Shown: one piece after another, positions 160 to 10,753 of the stretch | Position numbering within the stretch: position 1 is the first letter of the stretch | Layout: each line of letters starts with the position of its first letter | IMG/VR virus record: IMGVR_UViG_3300024520_000470 | Coordinates: 1 to 24,969 of that record | DNA from: a virus | Direction: 5' to 3' (one strand) | Length of the DNA stretch: 24,969 bases | Translations under genes and position numbers: made by a program | The notes under the pieces: model-generated | Database searches by the model: none | Seen by the model: only the letters and a program-made list of their open reading frames with translations | What the model was told of the DNA's origin: nothing

Positions 160-1467
160 TCAACCCTTGTCATCATCTTCGTACTCGTGGATGTAGCGAA
201 GTACCGCTTCCGAGAACCCGTCAATGTGGACCCACTTTCCTCGGTACCCGACGCCATTTCTATTTGACGCCACGTTTATGAGATAGGCCTTATCCGCCGA
301 AGGCGTCGCACCACCAGTCTGGCTCTGCTCATCGGTGATCACAATCAGGCGGTCGCACCTATGTCGGTTCACATGGTGTATCGCCCCACGTAGGTCAGTC
401 CAACCATGCCGCTGACTGTTGATAATTGCTTCCACACCAGCCATGCCTTTACGCGGCGGAACTTCAACCGCCCCATACGAAAATGTCCACAGCCGCACAT
501 CCCCCGGGATAATGGCCCCAAGGGTTGCCGCTGCGTCCATGCGAGTAAGGTCTGAACGGCTAGAAAGCGGATAGTTCATAGACCCGCTAACATCTATCAG
601 CACGTGAGTCTTACCAACGAGTGGCGTAAGCTCATTGATGCAGTCACACAGTGCTTGGTCAATGTACGGCTCATAGTGCGGGACAGCTCGGGCGGCAGCG
701 GTGTACCTGAACGGCAGAACCCTTCGGGCTCCCTTCCGTGCAAGAATGGCAAAGCGTACCAGTTCCTCGTCCACGCCCGCCTTGTCCATGTTCCGCAGAT
801 TACGGAGCAAAGCCATGTACCCAAGCTTCTCTTCCATGAGCAGCCGGGTGAAGACTTCCTTCTTGTCCTCACCAGCCGATAGCGCCACTTCCCAGGTGTC
901 CGGCGCTTTAAGCTCACCTTCTGCCAGTTTCTGCCAGACTTCCCCCTGTTCCCCATTCTTCGGGCGGGGGTGGCACATAAACATAACGTCACGCAGCTTA
1001 ACGGCCCCGTCACGGTTATATTTGGCCAGTGCGTAGGCATCAAACTGGTTAAAGGCCTTGGCCAGCCCCTTTTTAAGTTGAGCGGCTATGGGGCATCTAC
1101 CGTCGGCCCAGTACAGAGCTAACAGCTCAGTCATTTCATCCGGTCGTTGGACAATTTGGCCGATGTATTCTGCGACGCTGAAGTTGGTCATCTGCTTATT
1201 CAAAGCACCCAGAATAAGTAGAAGCGGAACATGCCGCAGATTCATATCAATGCGGGCTTCCAAGGCTAGATTCATAATGTTCTGCCCCGGCACATGCTCA
1301 CATAGCTGAGATATTCTCTCGGCTATTGACTCGCCATCCTCGTAGAATTCCTTTTCCCACAGTAGGCAGGACAGGACAGACCGACGCAGTTGTTCTTGAG
1401 GGGAAAGACCATGAACGGCTTTTCCCCCCTCTGCGGTATAAGATTTTTCTTTAACATTTTTTCGCAT
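160..1467 (-). CDS. rsr: TROVE domain protein, Ro60/Rsr orthologue (435 aa)
   Basis: Ro60 proteins are ring-shaped RNA binders that hold Y RNAs and misfolded RNAs and can pass them to exonucleases. The N-terminal ~280 residues are an all-helical TROVE ring; the C-terminal part is a von Willebrand A domain with an intact MIDAS: DVSGSM at 292-297, T357-D358 and D379. The open frame extends back to 1584, but that extension (SGVRVPPSR, GVAQLGRAH) is a readthrough of tRNA-like sequence. The ATG at 1467 has a GAGGTG Shine-Dalgarno a few bases upstream and is the better start. The Y RNA-like element at 1486-1621 lies immediately upstream on the same strand, as rsr and Y RNA genes commonly do. Function in the phage is inferred; the family call is firm. 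Confidence 0.93.
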   Translation of the reverse strand: MRKNVKEKSYTAEGGKAVHGLSPQEQLRRSVLSCLLWEKEFYEDGESIAERISQLCEHVPGQNIMNLALEARIDMNLRHVPLLLILGALNKQMTNFSVAEYIGQIVQRPDEMTELLALYWADGRCPIAAQLKKGLAKAFNQFDAYALAKYNRDGAVKLRDVMFMCHPRPKNGEQGEVWQKLAEGELKAPDTWEVALSAGEDKKEVFTRLLMEEKLGYMALLRNLRNMDKAGVDEELVRFAILARKGARRVLPFRYTAAARAVPHYEPYIDQALCDCINELTPLVGKTHVLIDVSGSMNYPLSSRSDLTRMDAAATLGAIIPGDVRLWTFSYGAVEVPPRKGMAGVEAIINSQRHGWTDLRGAIHHVNRHRCDRLIVITDEQSQTGGATPSADKAYLINVASNRNGVGYRGKWVHIDGFSEAVLRYIHEYEDDDKG

Positions 1468-1485
1468 AGCGCACCTCACAATGAA

Positions 1486-1621
1486 AGTGGGGAACAGTCG
1501 AGAACAGATAACATAATGCGCTCTACCCAACTGAGCTACCCCCCGGATTGCCCGGGAGGGAGGGACTCGAACCCCCGACCTCATCCTCCAAAGGGAAGTA
1601 ACTGTTTTCTACACCACCACT
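1486..1621 (-). ncRNA. YrlA-type Y RNA with circularly permuted tRNA-like module
   Basis: Read 5' to 3' on the minus strand: a T arm (stem 1576-1572/1564-1560, loop TTCGAGT 1571-1565), an acceptor-like stem (CCTCCCGG 1559-1552 with CCGGGGGG 1546-1539) closed by the loop GCAAT, so there is no free CCA end, then TA, a D arm (GCTC 1536-1533, loop AGTTGGGTA, GAGC 1523-1520). The anticodon-stem position is made from GGATG (1586-1582) and CATT (1518-1515). Further out GAAAACAG (1609-1602) pairs with CTGTTCTC (1507-1500) in 7 of 8 positions, and AGTGG (1621-1617) with CCACT (1490-1486). Thus the RNA ends sit where a tRNA anticodon arm would be. This is the arrangement described for bacterial YrlA RNAs that bind Ro60 and mimic tRNA. 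Exact 5' and 3' ends are inferred; no U-run terminator follows, so processing from a longer transcript is likely. Confidence 0.8.
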
Positions 1622-2608: not shown

Positions 2609-3177
2609 GGTCGTCTCATCCTCAACCAGTTATTCCCGTTTCTTGGATCAGCCAACCCATCCGCTTCTATTATCTTGTCAACCAGCATCTTTGTCAAATT
2701 GCTATCTTCAAGGCAGTAGTCGATGGTGCGGCCAAATAGTTTTCGTTGCCACCATACCGGCGCATTAGCCCCAGAGCCAGTTTTATTTCGGTGGAAGTTC
2801 ACCGAACCACAGGCGTCCAAACCAAACCCGCCATGAGTCCGATAATTAAACTTCGGTCCTAGACCAGCCGCTGCCCACAGTTCCACAAGCACATCGTATT
2901 CAGTGGTTACTTCAAGACCATTAGCCGCACACAATTTATCATCAAAATTAATTGAATTAAAGCCGATGACTAATCGTTCTTTAACAAGTGTCTGAAACTC
3001 ATCAAAGTTATCCTCTAAGAACACCCGAAACCGGCGCTCACGATAATCGTAAGCGGTTATGCAGCTTATCCCCATACCTGCATGGTCATCCCACCCTTTG
3101 CAGTACTCAATGCCCTCGGCTCTCGGCTCTTTTCGTCCTTGAATAGCCTTCTTTATCTCGCAATCGTATATCAACAT
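2605..3177 (-). CDS. DEDDy-type 3'-5' exonuclease (DnaQ-like fold, 190 aa)
   Basis: Motif I is IYDCEI with D5 and E7; motif II is GFNSINFDDKL with D79 or D80; motif III is DYCLEDSN with Y154-x3-D158. This D-E-D-D set with the Tyr variant of motif III defines the DEDDy subclass of RNase H-fold exonucleases, which remove nucleotides from 3' ends. At 190 aa it is little more than the catalytic domain. The family A polymerase nearby has its own exonuclease motifs, so this enzyme is probably a separate DNA-processing or RNA-processing activity. The start is ATG with GGAG 11 bases upstream, overlapping the preceding small gene. Confidence 0.8.
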   Translation of the reverse strand: MLIYDCEIKKAIQGRKEPRAEGIEYCKGWDDHAGMGISCITAYDYRERRFRVFLEDNFDEFQTLVKERLVIGFNSINFDDKLCAANGLEVTTEYDVLVELWAAAGLGPKFNYRTHGGFGLDACGSVNFHRNKTGSGANAPVWWQRKLFGRTIDYCLEDSNLTKMLVDKIIEADGLADPRNGNNWLRMRRP

Positions 3178-3335
3178 AGTTTCTTCATCTCCTTTAGGAC
3201 CTGTTCGGTCTGCTTTATCATGAACTCAAGACGCTGTTTAGAAAGTTTTCTTTTGACAAGGGAAAGAGTAAAGAATCCCGAGACTTTATATAGGGTGGCA
3301 CAAATTCGTTCGAGCCTGTCCTCTGTGTCAGACAA
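3171..3335 (-). CDS. Small basic helical protein, probable (54 aa, TTG start)
   Basis: The frame opens after a stop just upstream and its first usable start is TTG at 3335, overlapping the end of the zinc-ribbon gene. It reads SDTEDRLERICATLY, then KRKLSKQRLEFMIKQTEQ, and ends KEMKKLC; the whole chain looks like two amphipathic helices, possibly a coiled coil. Its TGA overlaps the ATG of the exonuclease, and its last codons carry that gene's Shine-Dalgarno. No Shine-Dalgarno is visible for the TTG, so the start is uncertain. Function unknown. Confidence 0.5.
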   Translation of the reverse strand: MSDTEDRLERICATLYKVSGFFTLSLVKRKLSKQRLEFMIKQTEQVLKEMKKLC

Positions 3336-5898: not shown

Positions 5899-6094
5899 GC
5901 CTGTACAATCTTACCTCGTAGCCCAAGAAGTTCGCCCAGTCTACGAATTGAGCTAGGCTGATGACTGGCTTCTTGCGGTTCCAGTTCCGTATGGTACGCA
6001 TTTCATAGCCGGTACCTTCAGCTAGCTCAAGAGACCCCAGCTTGAATATGCTAGTTGTCCTCTTCAGCATGAATATTAGCTCATGCATCTGCAT
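5876..6094 (-). CDS. XRE/Cro-like HTH protein (72 aa)
   Basis: A single-domain DNA-binding protein. Residues ~19-40, LGSLELAEGTGYEMRTIRNW, read as helix 2, turn and recognition helix of a lambda-repressor-like fold; SLAQFVDWANFLGYEVRL is the typical fourth-helix end. Starts are possible at 6094 and 6088; AGAGGA lies about 11 bases before 6094. It sits directly before the polymerase gene and overlaps both neighbours, so it may regulate this operon, or may assist at an origin. Its target is unknown. Confidence 0.75.
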   Translation of the reverse strand: MQMHELIFMLKRTTSIFKLGSLELAEGTGYEMRTIRNWNRKKPVISLAQFVDWANFLGYEVRLYRRDTNTTV

Positions 6095-6482
6095 GTCTGT
6101 TACTGTCCTCTCTTGTGGGTCCAGGTACCAACTGGTTCTTATGCCGCGCTATTTCCTTGTCCATTTTAACCTGTAAGACGTGCGCCTCAACGAGAAGCAG
6201 GTAGCGCCGTAGATCCTGTATATCGTCTAGCAGCCCTTCGGGCCTTTTATCCTGGTCCAAGGCTGTAAAGATATTGAAACCAGCTTTGTTTTCTACCTGC
6301 TCTTCAATACGGTCCCACTTGCGGGCGAGCATCATATAGGCCCCGACGCCCCCGCGCTTCTTCCACGAGGAAGCGTATTCTAGGTCCTTGGTAGTGGTTA
6401 TGTCAGCGTCGGCAAACTGTATTTCAGGTATGCGCTGATGATAATTAAACTTTGGGTCGTCTATGTTGTTTGTCAGCGGCAT
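6081..6482 (-). CDS. DUF1599/Nmad1-type protein (133 aa)
   Basis: From MPLTNNIDD the protein holds EYASSWKKRGGVGAYMMLA (36-53), RKWDRIEEQV (54-63), then LLDDIQDLRRYLLLVEA (84-100). The order Y/F-x-SSWKKRGG, K-x-DR, LxDxxxDLRxY is that of the all-helical domain called DUF1599 or 'nucleotide modification associated domain 1', common in phages and predicted to act in nucleotide metabolism. The ATG at 6482 has AAAGGAG eight bases upstream; the longer frame to 6566 only overlaps the TS gene. It follows the thymidylate-synthase gene (38-nt overlap), which suits a role in nucleotide supply. The precise reaction is unknown. Confidence 0.7.
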   Translation of the reverse strand: MPLTNNIDDPKFNYHQRIPEIQFADADITTTKDLEYASSWKKRGGVGAYMMLARKWDRIEEQVENKAGFNIFTALDQDKRPEGLLDDIQDLRRYLLLVEAHVLQVKMDKEIARHKNQLVPGPTREDSNRHADA

Positions 6483-7464
6483 TCTTAGCTCTCCTTTTGA
6501 TCCATTCTTCACAAGCAAGTCTCCAGTCGGTAGCGCGTATATCTGCGGCCATGCTGAGCGCACCACCCAAGTTTTTTTCTTTAACCTGATTCCAGGCTAG
6601 CCTCATAGGTGTTGCTACTTCAAAGAAAAAAGGGTTGTCTGCCGACCACCCCACTGAACCCGTCATCCACTCTAACAGATCTCGGTACCATGATTCAGGG
6701 TTATGCACCATCGGGTAGGGCTTGCACTGACCTATATCATACGGGTTACGGGGAGCAGGCTGGGGAGTGCCCACAGTGGCCAAAATAGCCGTGTAGGCGT
6801 GGTAGTCGTTACTTATTTGGGTGTACGTACCCAACGGCACCCCGACCATACTGGCAACGTACTCATGCAGCATCGACATGTGCACCGCGTTCGCCCCATA
6901 GGCCCCCCATATGATGTCATTGCTTCGGCAGCACACCGTCATGTCAAGCTCTATGCGCTGCTCATGGCGCATATCTCTATGCCGTATACGGAAGAATATA
7001 GTGGTGTTGCAGGGAGTATCTATTTTGTTGGCAAGAAGGTCACTGTTGCCGTCCCACATTGCCAGAACACAGCGGCGGGAGTTTGGGTCTCTTTTTAGAA
7101 TACCTATAATCACATCTATCTGATCATAGTCAAACCAGTGACGCCATCTGTGGCCATAGGCTCCCCAGAACTTTTTACCATCATCACTAAATTGGCCGAA
7201 CTTACTGTTATATCGTTCTATCCACTTTACATCATTCCGGCCCGCCAGCATCCACAGACCTTCCATAAAGTGGAAGAATGGGTTGGCATTGCGCTTTTCA
7301 TCAAACAATACCCGCTGGTCGGAGTGAAGGTAGACTGTGGAAACTGGGTCTGGATAGGTAAGACATTCGCCCGCCCTGCTCGGTCTGACGTCACCAGATT
7401 CTAATAACATCCTGAGACCCACGGTGTAGGCCTCATTGACGTTAAGTGCGTGTAGAGTCCTCAT
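6445..7464 (-). CDS. Thymidylate synthase homologue (TS or dUMP hydroxymethylase, 339 aa)
   Basis: The TS fold is plain: NANPFFHFMEGLWMLAGRND (59-78), the Arg pair SRR (130-131), catalytic Cys152 in DTPCNTTIFF, CCRSND (178-183), GANAVHMS with Asn192, and NDYHAY (H222, Y224). Asn192 aligns with the Asn that selects dUMP over dCMP, so the substrate is probably dUMP. The product may be dTMP or, with water as final acceptor, hydroxymethyl-dUMP; the sequence alone does not decide. Lying next to modification genes favours the second as a hypothesis. The ATG at 7464 with GGAAG upstream is preferred to a TTG at 7536. The start overlaps the glycosyltransferase gene by 23 nt. Confidence 0.88.
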   Translation of the reverse strand: MRTLHALNVNEAYTVGLRMLLESGDVRPSRAGECLTYPDPVSTVYLHSDQRVLFDEKRNANPFFHFMEGLWMLAGRNDVKWIERYNSKFGQFSDDGKKFWGAYGHRWRHWFDYDQIDVIIGILKRDPNSRRCVLAMWDGNSDLLANKIDTPCNTTIFFRIRHRDMRHEQRIELDMTVCCRSNDIIWGAYGANAVHMSMLHEYVASMVGVPLGTYTQISNDYHAYTAILATVGTPQPAPRNPYDIGQCKPYPMVHNPESWYRDLLEWMTGSVGWSADNPFFFEVATPMRLAWNQVKEKNLGGALSMAADIRATDWRLACEEWIKRRAKNAADKQHRRPKV

Positions 7465-8224
7465 AAGCTTTCTTCCATGAAATACGAACGTCGGTGCGAA
7501 TTCCTCCGCCCCACGAACTTTTGGTTTCTTTGGCAACTACTTTTACAAAACCGGGGTGTAGATTAGCAAGTTCATAACTGCACCGGGCCATCATTTCTTC
7601 ATCACGATAGGCAGCACATCCCCCCTCTTTTTGACTTCCGGGCTGGTTGTGGGCGTAATTGAACATGATTAGATTAGGGTGGCCAGCTCTTAGAAGTTGC
7701 AGGGTCATGTCAAAGTCTTGCTTAGTGTCAATACGATCAAAGCGGGCGCCGATCTTTGTTACTACCTCGACATCGTAGGCAAGAACCCGCATCATGCGGC
7801 CTACTTCTTGCGTGTACTCAGAGACCCGGTTATTTCCTTCTCTGGCGCTTATCCCCACATGTGTCCAGTCATTAAGGTGCCCTTCTACTTCGGCAATCAT
7901 ATTTTCAAGACCTTCAGCGCCTAATGGGAGCAACCTTACTTCCATTGGCTGCCCTGATCTACCACTAAAGGTTAGATCATCATCCATAAGGATGATCTTA
8001 TCCGCCGGGGTGTTATAGAGAAGATGTTGTCGAGTAGGAGATAGCATAGTTATATCAGCCGGTAGAATTCTGATATTAGCGTCTGGATGGGCTTTATAAT
8101 ATGCCTCTGCTTCCTTTTCTTGCACCACAAGCCAGACATTAGGTGCGTATCTAGTTTCCATTAGAGCTTTTAGGGTTGGTTGAGATCCTGCTCTTCCCGA
8201 GCTATGTATGTAGATGTTTAGCAT
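7442..8224 (-). CDS. TET-associated-type glycosyltransferase (TAGT-like, 260 aa)
   Basis: N-terminal MLNIYIHSSGRAGSQPTL, then VWLVVQEKEAEAYY, LSPTRQHLLYN (61-71) and the DxD-type metal/nucleotide-sugar site IILMDDDLTF (77-86, DDD at 81-83). This layout (S-x-GRA at the start, R-x-x-L-L-Y ahead of a MDDD strand) is that of the TAGT family, a GT-A glycosyltransferase predicted to add sugars to modified DNA bases in phages. The ATG at 8224 has GGGAG eight bases upstream and lies 2 nt after the radical SAM stop; a GTG at 8239 is less likely. Context with the radical SAM and TS genes supports a base-modification role. The sugar and acceptor are unknown. Confidence 0.8.
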   Translation of the reverse strand: MLNIYIHSSGRAGSQPTLKALMETRYAPNVWLVVQEKEAEAYYKAHPDANIRILPADITMLSPTRQHLLYNTPADKIILMDDDLTFSGRSGQPMEVRLLPLGAEGLENMIAEVEGHLNDWTHVGISAREGNNRVSEYTQEVGRMMRVLAYDVEVVTKIGARFDRIDTKQDFDMTLQLLRAGHPNLIMFNYAHNQPGSQKEGGCAAYRDEEMMARCSYELANLHPGFVKVVAKETKSSWGGGIRTDVRISWKKAYEDSTRT

Positions 8225-8226
8225 TT

Positions 8227-9186
8227 TTATTTCTCCCACGGTCTAAGGACCGGCTTTGTCATTGGTTCTCCACTGCTCGCCCAGTCAACTGTTTTTCGGT
8301 CATCAGCGGTTGGTACAGGGAGGTCCTGTTTTCCGACCTTATCAGGCAGGATACCAACCCTGAAACTTGTGTTGTCACAACCTTTACAGGGGCCAAAATT
8401 CCGGTCTCTATGGTAAAGGTGTTTTCGGGCGGCATCAAACGCGTCATTATTCCAGATCTCCTCTAGGCTGCCATCGTCGATATTTCCGGCCTTGTAGATT
8501 CCCCGCCAATCGTTGCAGCACAGCATCACTTGTCCGTCGTAACGTATGGCCATTTCCCGGAAGGGACGAGCGCAACGTTTCGCAAGCGGCTCCACCAAAG
8601 TAGGAAGTCCTGCGCCACAATGGTTATTGCCGATTTTAGTCCCCACCCTCTGACCTGTAAGAACTGCCTCTTCCATATCTTCCATAATGAAGATCCTCTG
8701 GCGCGACGCCTTAACTTTCGTATAAGGGCTTTCCTTTTTACTTGCATTGCTGTAGTCCCAGATTTCGACCGCATTGTACCCCCTGACCTGTTCTATCGCT
8801 TTCGCTGAATCTTTATAAGCGTCAAGAGCCAGTATATTGAGTCCGGCGTCGAATAGTCGACTAATATTGGCGTGGACGCCAGGAGGCTTAAGAAGCGGTG
8901 TTGCATTGCTCGTCACCATTAAGTGAGTTTTAGGAAGATTGCGCCTGAAGATATCGATAATAGCGACGCTGTGGGGGTTCATCAAAGGCTCCCCGCGCAA
9001 AGCAAACTCTATCTTGCTGTTCCACCCCGAGTCACTTATTTCCCCCGCTATATGGACCGCAGTTTCAAGGTCCATGAATTTATAATCACCGCGGGCCTCA
9101 CGGATACCCTGAATACCACACATCCCACACCGGAAATTGCAGCCCTCGGTCATTTCTAGCTTTATCGTATTCGGGGCATCCTGCAT
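8227..9186 (-). CDS. Radical SAM/SPASM-domain enzyme (319 aa)
   Basis: The radical SAM cluster site is C16-NFRC20-GMC23 (CxxxCxxC), followed by LRGEP (63-67), the GGEP-like SAM-binding motif. The C-terminal half carries further Cys residues at 190, 205, 223, 224, 267 and 270 (AKRCARPF, VMLCCNDW, GPCKGC), the pattern of a SPASM domain with auxiliary Fe-S clusters. Such enzymes make carbon radicals to rearrange or link atoms in a bound substrate. Radical SAM proteins occur in phage clusters for thymidine hypermodification, and this gene lies between the HMUDK-type and glycosyltransferase genes. Peptide or tRNA substrates cannot be excluded. The ATG overlaps the stop of the small membrane peptide (TAATG). 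Confidence 0.88.
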   Translation of the reverse strand: MQDAPNTIKLEMTEGCNFRCGMCGIQGIREARGDYKFMDLETAVHIAGEISDSGWNSKIEFALRGEPLMNPHSVAIIDIFRRNLPKTHLMVTSNATPLLKPPGVHANISRLFDAGLNILALDAYKDSAKAIEQVRGYNAVEIWDYSNASKKESPYTKVKASRQRIFIMEDMEEAVLTGQRVGTKIGNNHCGAGLPTLVEPLAKRCARPFREMAIRYDGQVMLCCNDWRGIYKAGNIDDGSLEEIWNNDAFDAARKHLYHRDRNFGPCKGCDNTSFRVGILPDKVGKQDLPVPTADDRKTVDWASSGEPMTKPVLRPWEK

Positions 9187-9296
9187 TATGTTAACAACCC
9201 CATCAGCATCTTATTAATGACCGCGACCAAACCGTTTCCTAGTGCCACTCCGGCCGCAATTATAATCACCGCCGTAAACACCTCATGACTTTTCAT
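9186..9296 (-). CDS. Small single-pass membrane peptide (36 aa)
   Basis: Reads MKSHEVFTAVIIIAAGVALG, then NGLVAVINKMLMGLLT: a short polar head and one continuous hydrophobic segment of about 25 residues. The ATG at 9296 lies inside the end of the upstream gene, with AAGGAG 11 bases before it. The stop overlaps the radical SAM start (TAATG), so it is part of the operon. Function unknown; it could be a holin-like or inhibitory micro-protein, or an anchor. The longer frame to 9377 lacks a ribosome site. Confidence 0.55.
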   Translation of the reverse strand: MKSHEVFTAVIIIAAGVALGNGLVAVINKMLMGLLT

Positions 9297-10146
9297 GTCT
9301 GTACCTGCTCCTTGGTCTACCTTGGCCGTTTTTGACCCGTTCATATTTATCGAACTCACACAACTGAAACTGAACATCGTGTAGTGCTAAGTCGCCCAAT
9401 CTTCCTGGCCAGTGAGCTACCCTCGCCTTATACAGCTCTAGCATCTCTTCCATATAGATTCGCTCGGGCCGCTTTTGGTCAAAAGGCCTGACCATTATTC
9501 TGTTTAAGCCCCGACGTGCTCCAGGACCAACTGGGCACCATGTATTCAAGTCTTTTATCTTTGGCCAGATTGCACAATGAATAGCATCCTGCATCACTTC
9601 CTTAGCCATAAACCCCGAACCGCCAAAACCTTGGAGCACCCGCATGTGCTTGATTATAGCCTCCCAGGACTCAGTATTTAACCCAACTTCAACAAGTGTT
9701 GAACAAGCATCCCAGAAGGGCTTCAGGAACATATCCACTACGACTTCCTGCTTAGGTGCCGAAATACCTTGATTAGTGATGACATACGCCCCTGTGAAGA
9801 CCTTTTTCTTATGGGCCATCATCATAGCTGCCACAGCCTTAATCCGGTTTCTGGTCTCTAGATCAAAGTCATACTGGTAGCCAATTGCTTCGGCAAACTC
9901 CATTGTCCCAAAGTACCGGAACAGGGCGCAGTTAAAAAGCTGAACATGGGCGGGCTGGCCGAGGTTCTGGTTGGTCCAGTTATCCCGCATCCAGCGTGTA
10001 GTGCGATCGTCCTCCCTATGGACGTTGGTGAATTTATATTCCTGGAGTATCTTATCATCGGTCCAGGGCCACGGCCTTCCCGCTTCCTTATTTAGACGTG
10101 TACTTTCCCGCTTAACCATAAAGGTATAGAAATCTTCAGTCCTCAT
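9283..10146 (-). CDS. HMUDK-helical/aGPT-PPlase-type base-hypermodification protein (287 aa)
   Basis: The N-terminus has RESTRLNKEAG, PWPWTDDKILQEYKFTNVH (25-43) and REDDRTTRW (44-52). This F-T-N-V-x-RE-x-D signature after PWT-x-D marks the helical domain found in 5-hydroxymethyl-dU DNA kinases and in alpha-glutamyl/putrescinyl-thymine pyrophosphorylase-like proteins. Those act after replication on 5-hmdU in phage DNA, phosphorylating it or replacing its pyrophosphate with an amine or amino acid. No P-loop kinase domain is visible, so this is the stand-alone helical type. The ATG at 10146 is chosen over 10185 because the longer form reads back through the preceding zinc-binding gene. Exact chemistry is inferred. 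Confidence 0.72.
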   Translation of the reverse strand: MRTEDFYTFMVKRESTRLNKEAGRPWPWTDDKILQEYKFTNVHREDDRTTRWMRDNWTNQNLGQPAHVQLFNCALFRYFGTMEFAEAIGYQYDFDLETRNRIKAVAAMMMAHKKKVFTGAYVITNQGISAPKQEVVVDMFLKPFWDACSTLVEVGLNTESWEAIIKHMRVLQGFGGSGFMAKEVMQDAIHCAIWPKIKDLNTWCPVGPGARRGLNRIMVRPFDQKRPERIYMEEMLELYKARVAHWPGRLGDLALHDVQFQLCEFDKYERVKNGQGRPRSRYRHEKS

Positions 10147-10306
10147 CCTCAACAACCATCCCTTCCGGCAGCGGTTTAGTTTCAATACAGTTTTTACCTA
10201 TGCAGAGAAGCCAGTATCTCTCCATATCCCCATCTATGATCCAGCCAAACGAACCGCACTTCAGACAGGGCTCACTCTTTACGACATCACAAAGACTAAT
10301 CTTCAT
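10136..10306 (-). CDS. Small Cys-rich zinc-binding protein (56 aa)
   Basis: The ATG at 10306 opens MKISLCDVVKSEPCLKCGSFGW; Cys at 6, 14, 17, 35 and 40 (PCLKCG and LLCIGKNC) suggest a zinc ribbon. It ends PEGMVVEDED. GGGTAG precedes the ATG by three bases. It overlaps the upstream Tad2-like gene by 11 nt and the downstream modification gene by 11 nt, which is the spacing habit of this operon. Function unknown. Confidence 0.65.
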   Translation of the reverse strand: MKISLCDVVKSEPCLKCGSFGWIIDGDMERYWLLCIGKNCIETKPLPEGMVVEDED

Positions 10307-10508
10307 AAGCTACCCAATCCTCTGCAAACATGTCATTTTGAGTGGGGTTCCATGGTAGCCTAACACCGTTTATAGGATAAAAGAACACAACCCAATCATC
10401 TTTTTTATAGGGGGTGTACACAGCCATGACAAACGTTCCCTTGAACCACGATTGTCTGGTAAACTTCTCACCATCTTTTACTTGCGACAATGCTCTGGGA
10501 AAGTCCAT
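10296..10508 (-). CDS. Tad2-like (DUF2829) protein, divergent copy (70 aa)
   Basis: MDFPRALSQVKDGEKFTRQSW at the start, then RLPWNPTQNDMFAEDWVAYE. The frame of conserved residues (F-x-x-AL-x-x-x-K-x-G-x-x-x-TR-x-x-W ... PW-x-x-x-Q-x-DMFA-x-DW) is that of DUF2829, now known as Tad2, whose characterised member sequesters the cyclic-ADP-ribose signal of the Thoeris defence. It is shorter than typical members and differs in the middle from its neighbour. TAATG overlap with the copy at 10508-10738. Retained ligand binding is not certain. Confidence 0.7.
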   Translation of the reverse strand: MDFPRALSQVKDGEKFTRQSWFKGTFVMAVYTPYKKDDWVVFFYPINGVRLPWNPTQNDMFAEDWVAYED

Positions 10509-10738
10509 TATTCTGGGTCCAAATCATATATCTGCCAATCGTTTGCGAACATGTCGCCTTGACTGCACAGCCACGGAATTAAGTCTTTCTGTACTGTGCG
10601 GATGTAGATGTAGGGCTTGGTCATCTTACTCCCGTCATCAGGGAACTGGGCCTTAAGATACTGATCTGCCCCGTTCCACCCAACACGAGTAACGGCGTTC
10701 CCCAGCTTTAGTTCTGTAAGTGCTACTGAAAAGTCCAT
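10508..10738 (-). CDS. Tad2-like (DUF2829) protein, predicted anti-Thoeris (76 aa)
   Basis: MDFSVALTELKLGNAVTRVG-WNG, then SKMTKPYIYIRT, IPWLCSQGDMFANDW: the full DUF2829 order of motifs. Tad2 proteins of phages bind and hide gcADPR-type signals made by ThsB of the host Thoeris system. GGAGG six bases before the ATG is the strongest ribosome site in this part of the window. It is the first gene after an intrinsic terminator, so a promoter or readthrough is needed nearby. The paralogue follows at once, the pair arising by tandem duplication. Confidence 0.8.
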   Translation of the reverse strand: MDFSVALTELKLGNAVTRVGWNGADQYLKAQFPDDGSKMTKPYIYIRTVQKDLIPWLCSQGDMFANDWQIYDLDPE

Positions 10739-10753
10739 ACCTGTCCTCCAATC

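Follow-up and report, generated by a model that had tools for sequence, protein, structure and literature searches.

The window analysed here, an IMG/VR virus record of 24,969 bases whose recognisable genes all lie on the minus strand, carries two overlapping genes, tadA and tadB; sequence evidence and predicted folds support the assignment of their products to the Tad2 family. TadA is a canonical short-form protein; TadB has kept the N- and C-terminal core of the family, and its middle has been selectively rewritten. The reading that we favour, with moderate confidence, is that the pair forms a coupled counter-defence unit, in which TadA would be a sponge for an ADPR-type signal and TadB would change or widen the range. 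The family, known for trapping bacterial alarm molecules, is an ordinary one and the arrangement uncommon, separate neighbouring Tad2 genes being rare; the pair departs only slightly from a counter-defence already described.

Two overlapping genes of the Tad2 family

A first-pass annotation had placed two diverged DUF2829 genes at 10296-10738, and two intact open reading frames (ORFs) do lie at exactly these coordinates (Table 1), both matching Pfam family PF11195 (Thoeris anti-defense 2-like), of which DUF2829 is the older name. In a two-sequence BLASTP comparison, 22 of 72 positions were identical (31%, E 7e-10), and TadA and TadB are thus diverged homologues rather than a chance resemblance. 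A strong ribosome-binding site was seen by eye ahead of tadA (GGAGGACAGGT-ATG), and none was evident by eye before tadB. This fits translational coupling or reinitiation of tadB, which the TAATG overlap makes probable. The pair is also present on a second contig, which comes from the same virus (99.95% identity across 6,312 bases) and adds no independent evolution.

Table 1. Positions of the features of the window
Feature	Position	Strand	Description
TROVE/vWA (Ro60-like) protein	160..1584	(-)	RNA-binding protein
Accessory cassette	5899..10738	(-)	Tad2 pair, HMUDK_hel, radical SAM/SPASM, TAGT-type glycosyltransferase, thymidylate-synthase-like gene
Radical SAM/SPASM protein	8227..9186	(-)	beside TAGT-type glycosyltransferase
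HMUDK_hel-family protein (thymine hypermodification)	9283..10185	(-)	PF18723, E 3.5e-37; downstream of the pair
56-aa cysteine-containing ORF	10136..10306	(-)	overlaps the tadB end and the HMUDK_hel gene
TadB	10296..10508	(-)	intact 70-aa ORF, ATG start; diverged Tad2-like, rewritten central segment
TAATG	10506..10510	(-)	tadA stop and tadB start with one shared base; read from sequence
TadA	10508..10738	(-)	intact 76-aa ORF, ATG start; canonical short-form Tad2-like protein
Shine-Dalgarno-like GGAGGACAGGT	10739..10750	(-)	before tadA, by eye

Against the PF11195 model (curated cut-off 25 bits), TadA scored 77.6 bits (E 1.1e-21, domain positions 1-73 of 73) and TadB 57.2 bits (E 2.5e-15, positions 1-71 of 73); a six-frame Pfam search of the whole record found the family in these two genes only. 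The top PDB sequence match of both was the Myroides Tad2 protein 8v3e (E 4.4e-8 for TadA, 2.4e-4 for TadB). A profile from an alignment of 55 family members, TadA and TadB included (alignment A5), matched seven Tad2/AcrIIA7 sequences in the PDB at E 2.5e-20 to 5.9e-18, the next match having an E of 0.41.

Single-chain AlphaFold2 models, made with alignments of 55 sequences from the window and from viral contigs, had a pLDDT of 94.5 for TadA and 84.5 for TadB, with block means of 67-82 in TadB residues 21-50 and the lowest in 31-50. In VIA-align, the TadA model superposed on SPO1 Tad2 (8wje) with Z 12.9 and rmsd 1.3 over 71 residues, and the TadB model on SPO1 Tad2 with gcADPR (8smf) with Z 11.5 and rmsd 2.1 over 69 residues. 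Ten Tad2-family entries filled the top ten rows for both proteins (Z 10.4-12.9); the first other fold, the phage 812 neck protein 8qkh, followed at Z about 6. Foldseek matched the TadB model to 8smg (E 8.7e-5). The fold evidence for TadB is partly borrowed from its canonical relatives, which make up most of its alignment. Profile, PDB sequence match and predicted fold together bear out the earlier assignment of both proteins to the Tad2 family.

PF11195 spans very diverse proteins, and from family membership an anti-Thoeris function of TadA is plausible. PADLOC and NCBIfam gave no match for TadA, TadB or the 56-aa ORF. It is very unlikely, in our view, that the proteins are a regulator, a virion part or a toxin built on the same fold. 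TadB weakly matched phrog_643, 'transcriptional regulator' (E 2.2e-5), as did six of the 55 A5 members, but phrog_1048 and phrog_872, both of function unknown, matched all 55 and beat phrog_643 for TadB. The type I toxin name of Staphylococcus aureus MW1434 was once applied by RefSeq to DUF2829 proteins. A list of predicted type I toxins includes MW1434 (PMC6266405), and in one genome (G362) Tad2-like domains form part of long proteins, in one case with a GGSGG linker; solved relatives, on the other hand, are named Tad2 sponges or AcrIIA7. Because such long proteins look otherwise unrelated, function cannot be read from the fold alone.

The short form and the rewritten middle of TadB

The Tad2 chains in the PDB that the A5 profile matched are 88-158 residues long. 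A scan of viral contigs with a second alignment (A1) kept 80 loci, and most of the distinct domains listed were 70-71 residues long, with the pattern GWNG...PDxxSKMTxPYIY...PWLASQTDxLAEDW. The short form is therefore common and TadA a typical member of it; this class, frequent in the sampled viral contigs, is yet absent among the solved Tad2 chains matched (88 residues or more). The 70-aa copy had been thought to have lost much of its middle segment. TadB is only about three residues short of the Pfam domain and of the common 70-71-aa class, and the long insertion of SPO1 Tad2 and HgmTad2 was missing from TadA and TadB alike in the alignments. The middle of TadB is indeed altered, by substitution and not by large deletion.

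The extent of the change was gauged at 20 near-invariant columns, chosen for conservation of 90% or more among the remaining 53 A5 sequences. As a proxy for pocket positions, and not a set of contact residues, these were kept in TadA at 20 of 20 and in TadB at 11 of 20. The TadB losses were concentrated: two of ten positions were kept in residues 20-43, as against nine of ten elsewhere. They include G20, N22 and G23 in the β1-β2 loop, where SWFK replaces GWNG.

As described in a review (PMC12043709), the gcADPR pocket is formed by loops β1-β2 and β3-β4, strand β4, loop β4-α3 and helix α3 of two protomers, cyclic dinucleotides are bound through the insertion between β2 and β5, and SPO1 Tad2 dimerises via helix α2 and β2. 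The SPO1-type sponge is a homotetramer of V-shaped dimers. On the review's description TadA appears to retain the elements of an ADPR-type pocket. The absence of the β2-β5 insertion argues against cyclic-dinucleotide binding, which neither protein should perform in the known way, and makes the ADPR-type pocket the likelier site. TadB, having lost G20, N22 and G23 from a loop that lines the gcADPR pocket, may bind nothing of that kind. By the alignment, rather than by coordinates, the missing insertion would hold the dimer helix α2; if it does, TadA and TadB must assemble differently from SPO1 Tad2.

Descent of TadA and TadB

In a tree of 49 rows and 76 columns, TadA grouped with a protein of another viral record (L020) with support of 98/94, inside a nine-row set of short Tad2 proteins (97/93) that includes two Mycobacterium phage proteins. 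A Pfam search of the L020 record found no second Tad2 gene. TadB formed a long branch (3.04, as compared with 0.44 for TadA) with no supported place, and forcing TadA and TadB to be sisters was neither supported nor rejected (p-AU 0.38), the columns being too few. A recent duplication is unlikely because the two are only 31% identical; TadB would stem from an old duplication or a separate acquisition, which the tree does not distinguish. Close relatives of TadB in viral contigs came from the same virus only, and its best-scoring match in named phages was a canonical protein of Klebsiella phage IME346 (32.5% identical, E 1e-6).

The long branch and the loss of nine of the 20 near-invariant positions could mean that TadB is a functionless, decaying duplicate and that TadA does the work. 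We regard this as unlikely, since the tadB ORF is intact and cleanly coupled, the N- and C-terminal core is kept, and the concentration of the losses in residues 20-43 looks like the rewriting of a site, not random decay.

The same divergence bears on a second alternative, that TadA and TadB are independent sponges, each a homo-oligomer with its own ligand, which the gene overlap merely co-expresses. The low identity, the rewritten pocket region of TadB and its failure to be placed beside TadA with support are consistent with this, as is a bacterial locus (L106) with two complete Tad2 genes of different length classes. Sister placement was not rejected, though, and tight coupling would suit a complex equally. 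We consider independent sponges possible but doubtful.

Tandem and fused Tad2 domains elsewhere

An HMM scan of 99 loci and the window gave a match in 97 and two matches in six, all six from this same virus. A Pfam search of 50 further viral records in full length, taken from the first 70 listed, found two PF11195 matches in one (G007/L010), the second being weak (14.8 bits, under the cut-off). That record has a standard-type and a so-called SW-type Tad2 as separate genes (L010:227-445 and 820-1053), the SW-type about 375 bases downstream. Its standard-type protein reads PCDLSCES where PWLASQTD is usual.

The comparison also took in 16 prokaryotic genomes with a Tad2 domain. One (G057, locus L106) has two successive Tad2 genes on one strand with about 265 bases between the domain ends, and in another (G061) a single contig carries two at a distance of about 4.8 kb. 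Two domains lie within one ORF in G058 and G060, and the copies of G056 and G066 are on separate contigs. In two phyla the family was present in 4 of 398 and 4 of 199 genomes respectively, counts that include the seed genomes. Literature searches over titles and abstract openings turned up no description of a tandem Tad2 pair, which is not proof of absence. A 2025 preprint by Hadary, cited in PMC13232231 under a title on sponge diversity, may already cover paired or fused Tad2 proteins.

As fused proteins, on the other hand, a diverged and a standard domain recur together. Pfam found two PF11195 stretches in one protein at each of L107 and L109, and a single-sequence scan from the first, SW-type domain of L107 returned four loci, all fused. 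With an alignment of five SW-type sequences, 61 viral loci were found. In 55 of these a canonical Tad2 domain lies in the same ORF by threshold; the remaining six have, by eye, a further Tad2-like domain, whole or in part, directly behind, five in the same ORF (two cut short) and one in an abutting frame. The sample is biased because its seed was fused. Even so, these 61 loci show that phages do pair a changed with a standard Tad2 domain. Across L122-L182, L107, L109 and L118-L121, a diverged SWGGYW domain appears to be joined with another Tad2 domain, which is mostly of the standard kind.

TadB itself is not an SW-type domain. It scored 43.1 bits against a canonical profile from which it had been left out, as compared with 11.8 bits against an SW-type profile of seven domains, two members of which scored 113-132 bits. 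TadB is therefore a diverged canonical-type domain. The second domains of L147 and L149 score like it (44.9 and 40.6 bits). Two stretches that follow the Tad2 domain at L005:4848-5600 had been taken by eye for diverged copies; Pfam and the canonical and SW-type profiles gave this no support.

These comparisons bear on the idea that TadA and TadB form an obligate hetero-oligomer, as the split form of the fused diverged-plus-standard proteins of Bacillota phages. The first-pass suggestion of a hetero-oligomer or of two bound signals gains indirect support from the recurrence of such fusions and from the separate genes of L010. A second Tad2-like domain, at least in part, stands directly behind the first at all 61 SW-type loci, L010 carries both kinds as separate genes, and the TAATG coupling would suit such a complex. 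We think it unlikely nonetheless: the 61 loci stem from a fused seed, TadB scores as canonical and not as SW-type, and the order is reversed, the diverged copy being second.

Some Tad2-like domains have other partners. Phage_gp49_66 (PF13876) is fused ahead of a Tad2-like domain at L067:2707-3240 and L096:1790-2359 by Pfam, and at L076 and L097 by eye; in phage N4, gp48 (PF13876) directly precedes the Tad2-like gp49 (L117:2381-2752 and 2752-3234). Fusion and adjacency hint that PF13876 is a counter-defence partner. In-frame TGA codons, six in the Tad2-like gene of L007 (G006:17587-17829) and four in that of L113 (G064:C13:76-306), suggest viruses or hosts that reassign TGA. One genome (G362; L185, L191) has several Tad2-like domains, of which one is followed by a GGSGG-rich linker and then a long C-terminal part, and the fold may serve other roles there.

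Genomic context of the pair

The pair lies in an accessory cassette flanked by the UvrD and 99-aa genes on one side and DNA polymerase A on the other. Downstream of the pair, in order on the minus strand, follow the genes for HMUDK_hel, a 63-aa ORF, the radical SAM/SPASM protein, the TAGT-type glycosyltransferase, the thymidylate-synthase-like protein, two small ORFs and DNA polymerase A. On the upstream side are a 99-aa ORF, which an earlier start would lengthen to 116 aa, and the genes for a UvrD-type helicase and an AEP-type primase. In combination, the radical SAM/SPASM protein and the neighbouring TAGT-type glycosyltransferase might make a new base modification. For the 56-aa ORF, neither a Pfam family nor a tblastn match among 50,697 phage records was found, and a PHROG match (E 0.058, 11 residues) was so weak that it was taken as chance.

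Phage DSL-LC04 has a polymerase and a primase about 40% identical to those of the window, in the order primase, 85-codon gene, UvrD, polymerase; its UvrD gene abuts PolA and the cassette is absent. Whole-record searches found PF11195 in none of four relatives of the replication module (DSL-LC04, MW202510.1, HTVC023P and Sonora). In this lineage the Tad2 pair thus goes together with a set of DNA-modification genes. DNA-modification genes usually serve against restriction. These neighbours and the absence from relatives suit an accessory counter-defence cassette; they are consistent with one and do not prove it.

A model for the pair

Under the coupled-unit reading, a tailed phage with a predicted set of genes for hypermodified DNA would carry a translationally coupled pair. 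TadA would most likely oligomerise like the characterised Tad2 proteins and sequester an NAD+-derived immune signal of the ADP-ribose type in a pocket between protomers. TadB, a diverged paralogue or a separately acquired homologue produced together with TadA, would most likely change or widen the range of ligands bound, whether it oligomerises by itself or together with TadA. We infer the oligomer, the ligand class, the anti-defence role and any joint action of the two proteins. In a bolder version, which we rate as quite unlikely, the two proteins would assemble into one mixed oligomer whose pockets differ, and a single coupled operon would disarm two immune signals of different chemistry. 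Pairs of a diverged and a standard domain, fused or split, would then represent a general two-specificity design. Together, this compact pair, with one member conserved and the other altered in its pocket region, and the fused doubles make it testable whether Tad2 specificity evolves in phages through the pairing of a standard with a changed unit.

Comparison with known Tad2 proteins

Of the published members, the SPO1 protein binds gcADPR and the Myroides protein His-ADPR (PMC13299392), and across the accounts in two sources the signals bound are gcADPR, His-ADPR and cyclic dinucleotides (PMC13299392, PMC12043709). Sponge proteins are also described as able to trip Panoptes (PMC12657218), which could favour narrow specificity.

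SPO1 Tad2 (Gp34.65; 8sme, 8smf, 8smg, 8wje) shares the Pfam family and the monomer fold with both window proteins, and the motifs GWNG, W..SQ.D and DW with TadA, but it is about 90 aa long, has the insertion that TadA and TadB lack and is known as a single gene. The Tad2 of a Myroides odoratus prophage (ModTad2; 8v3e, 9eib; His-ADPR) is the closest PDB sequence to both, although it is a single protein of 88-89 aa with a longer middle. HgmTad2/AcrIIA7 and SptTad2 (8kbi-8kbk, 8wjd) have the same fold (Z 10.4-12.5); unlike TadA and TadB, they carry the long insertion, with a cyclic dinucleotide in some structures.

The nearest likenesses in arrangement are of two kinds. The alphaproteobacterial tandem (L106) resembles the pair in having Tad2-like genes side by side in the same orientation; there, both are canonical, one has a long middle and an extra N-terminal part, and the genes do not overlap. 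The fused doubles found in Bacillota genomes and in viral contigs (L107, L109, L118-L121) bring a diverged and a standard domain together as the pair does, but in one polypeptide with the SW-type domain first, a type to which TadB does not belong by score.
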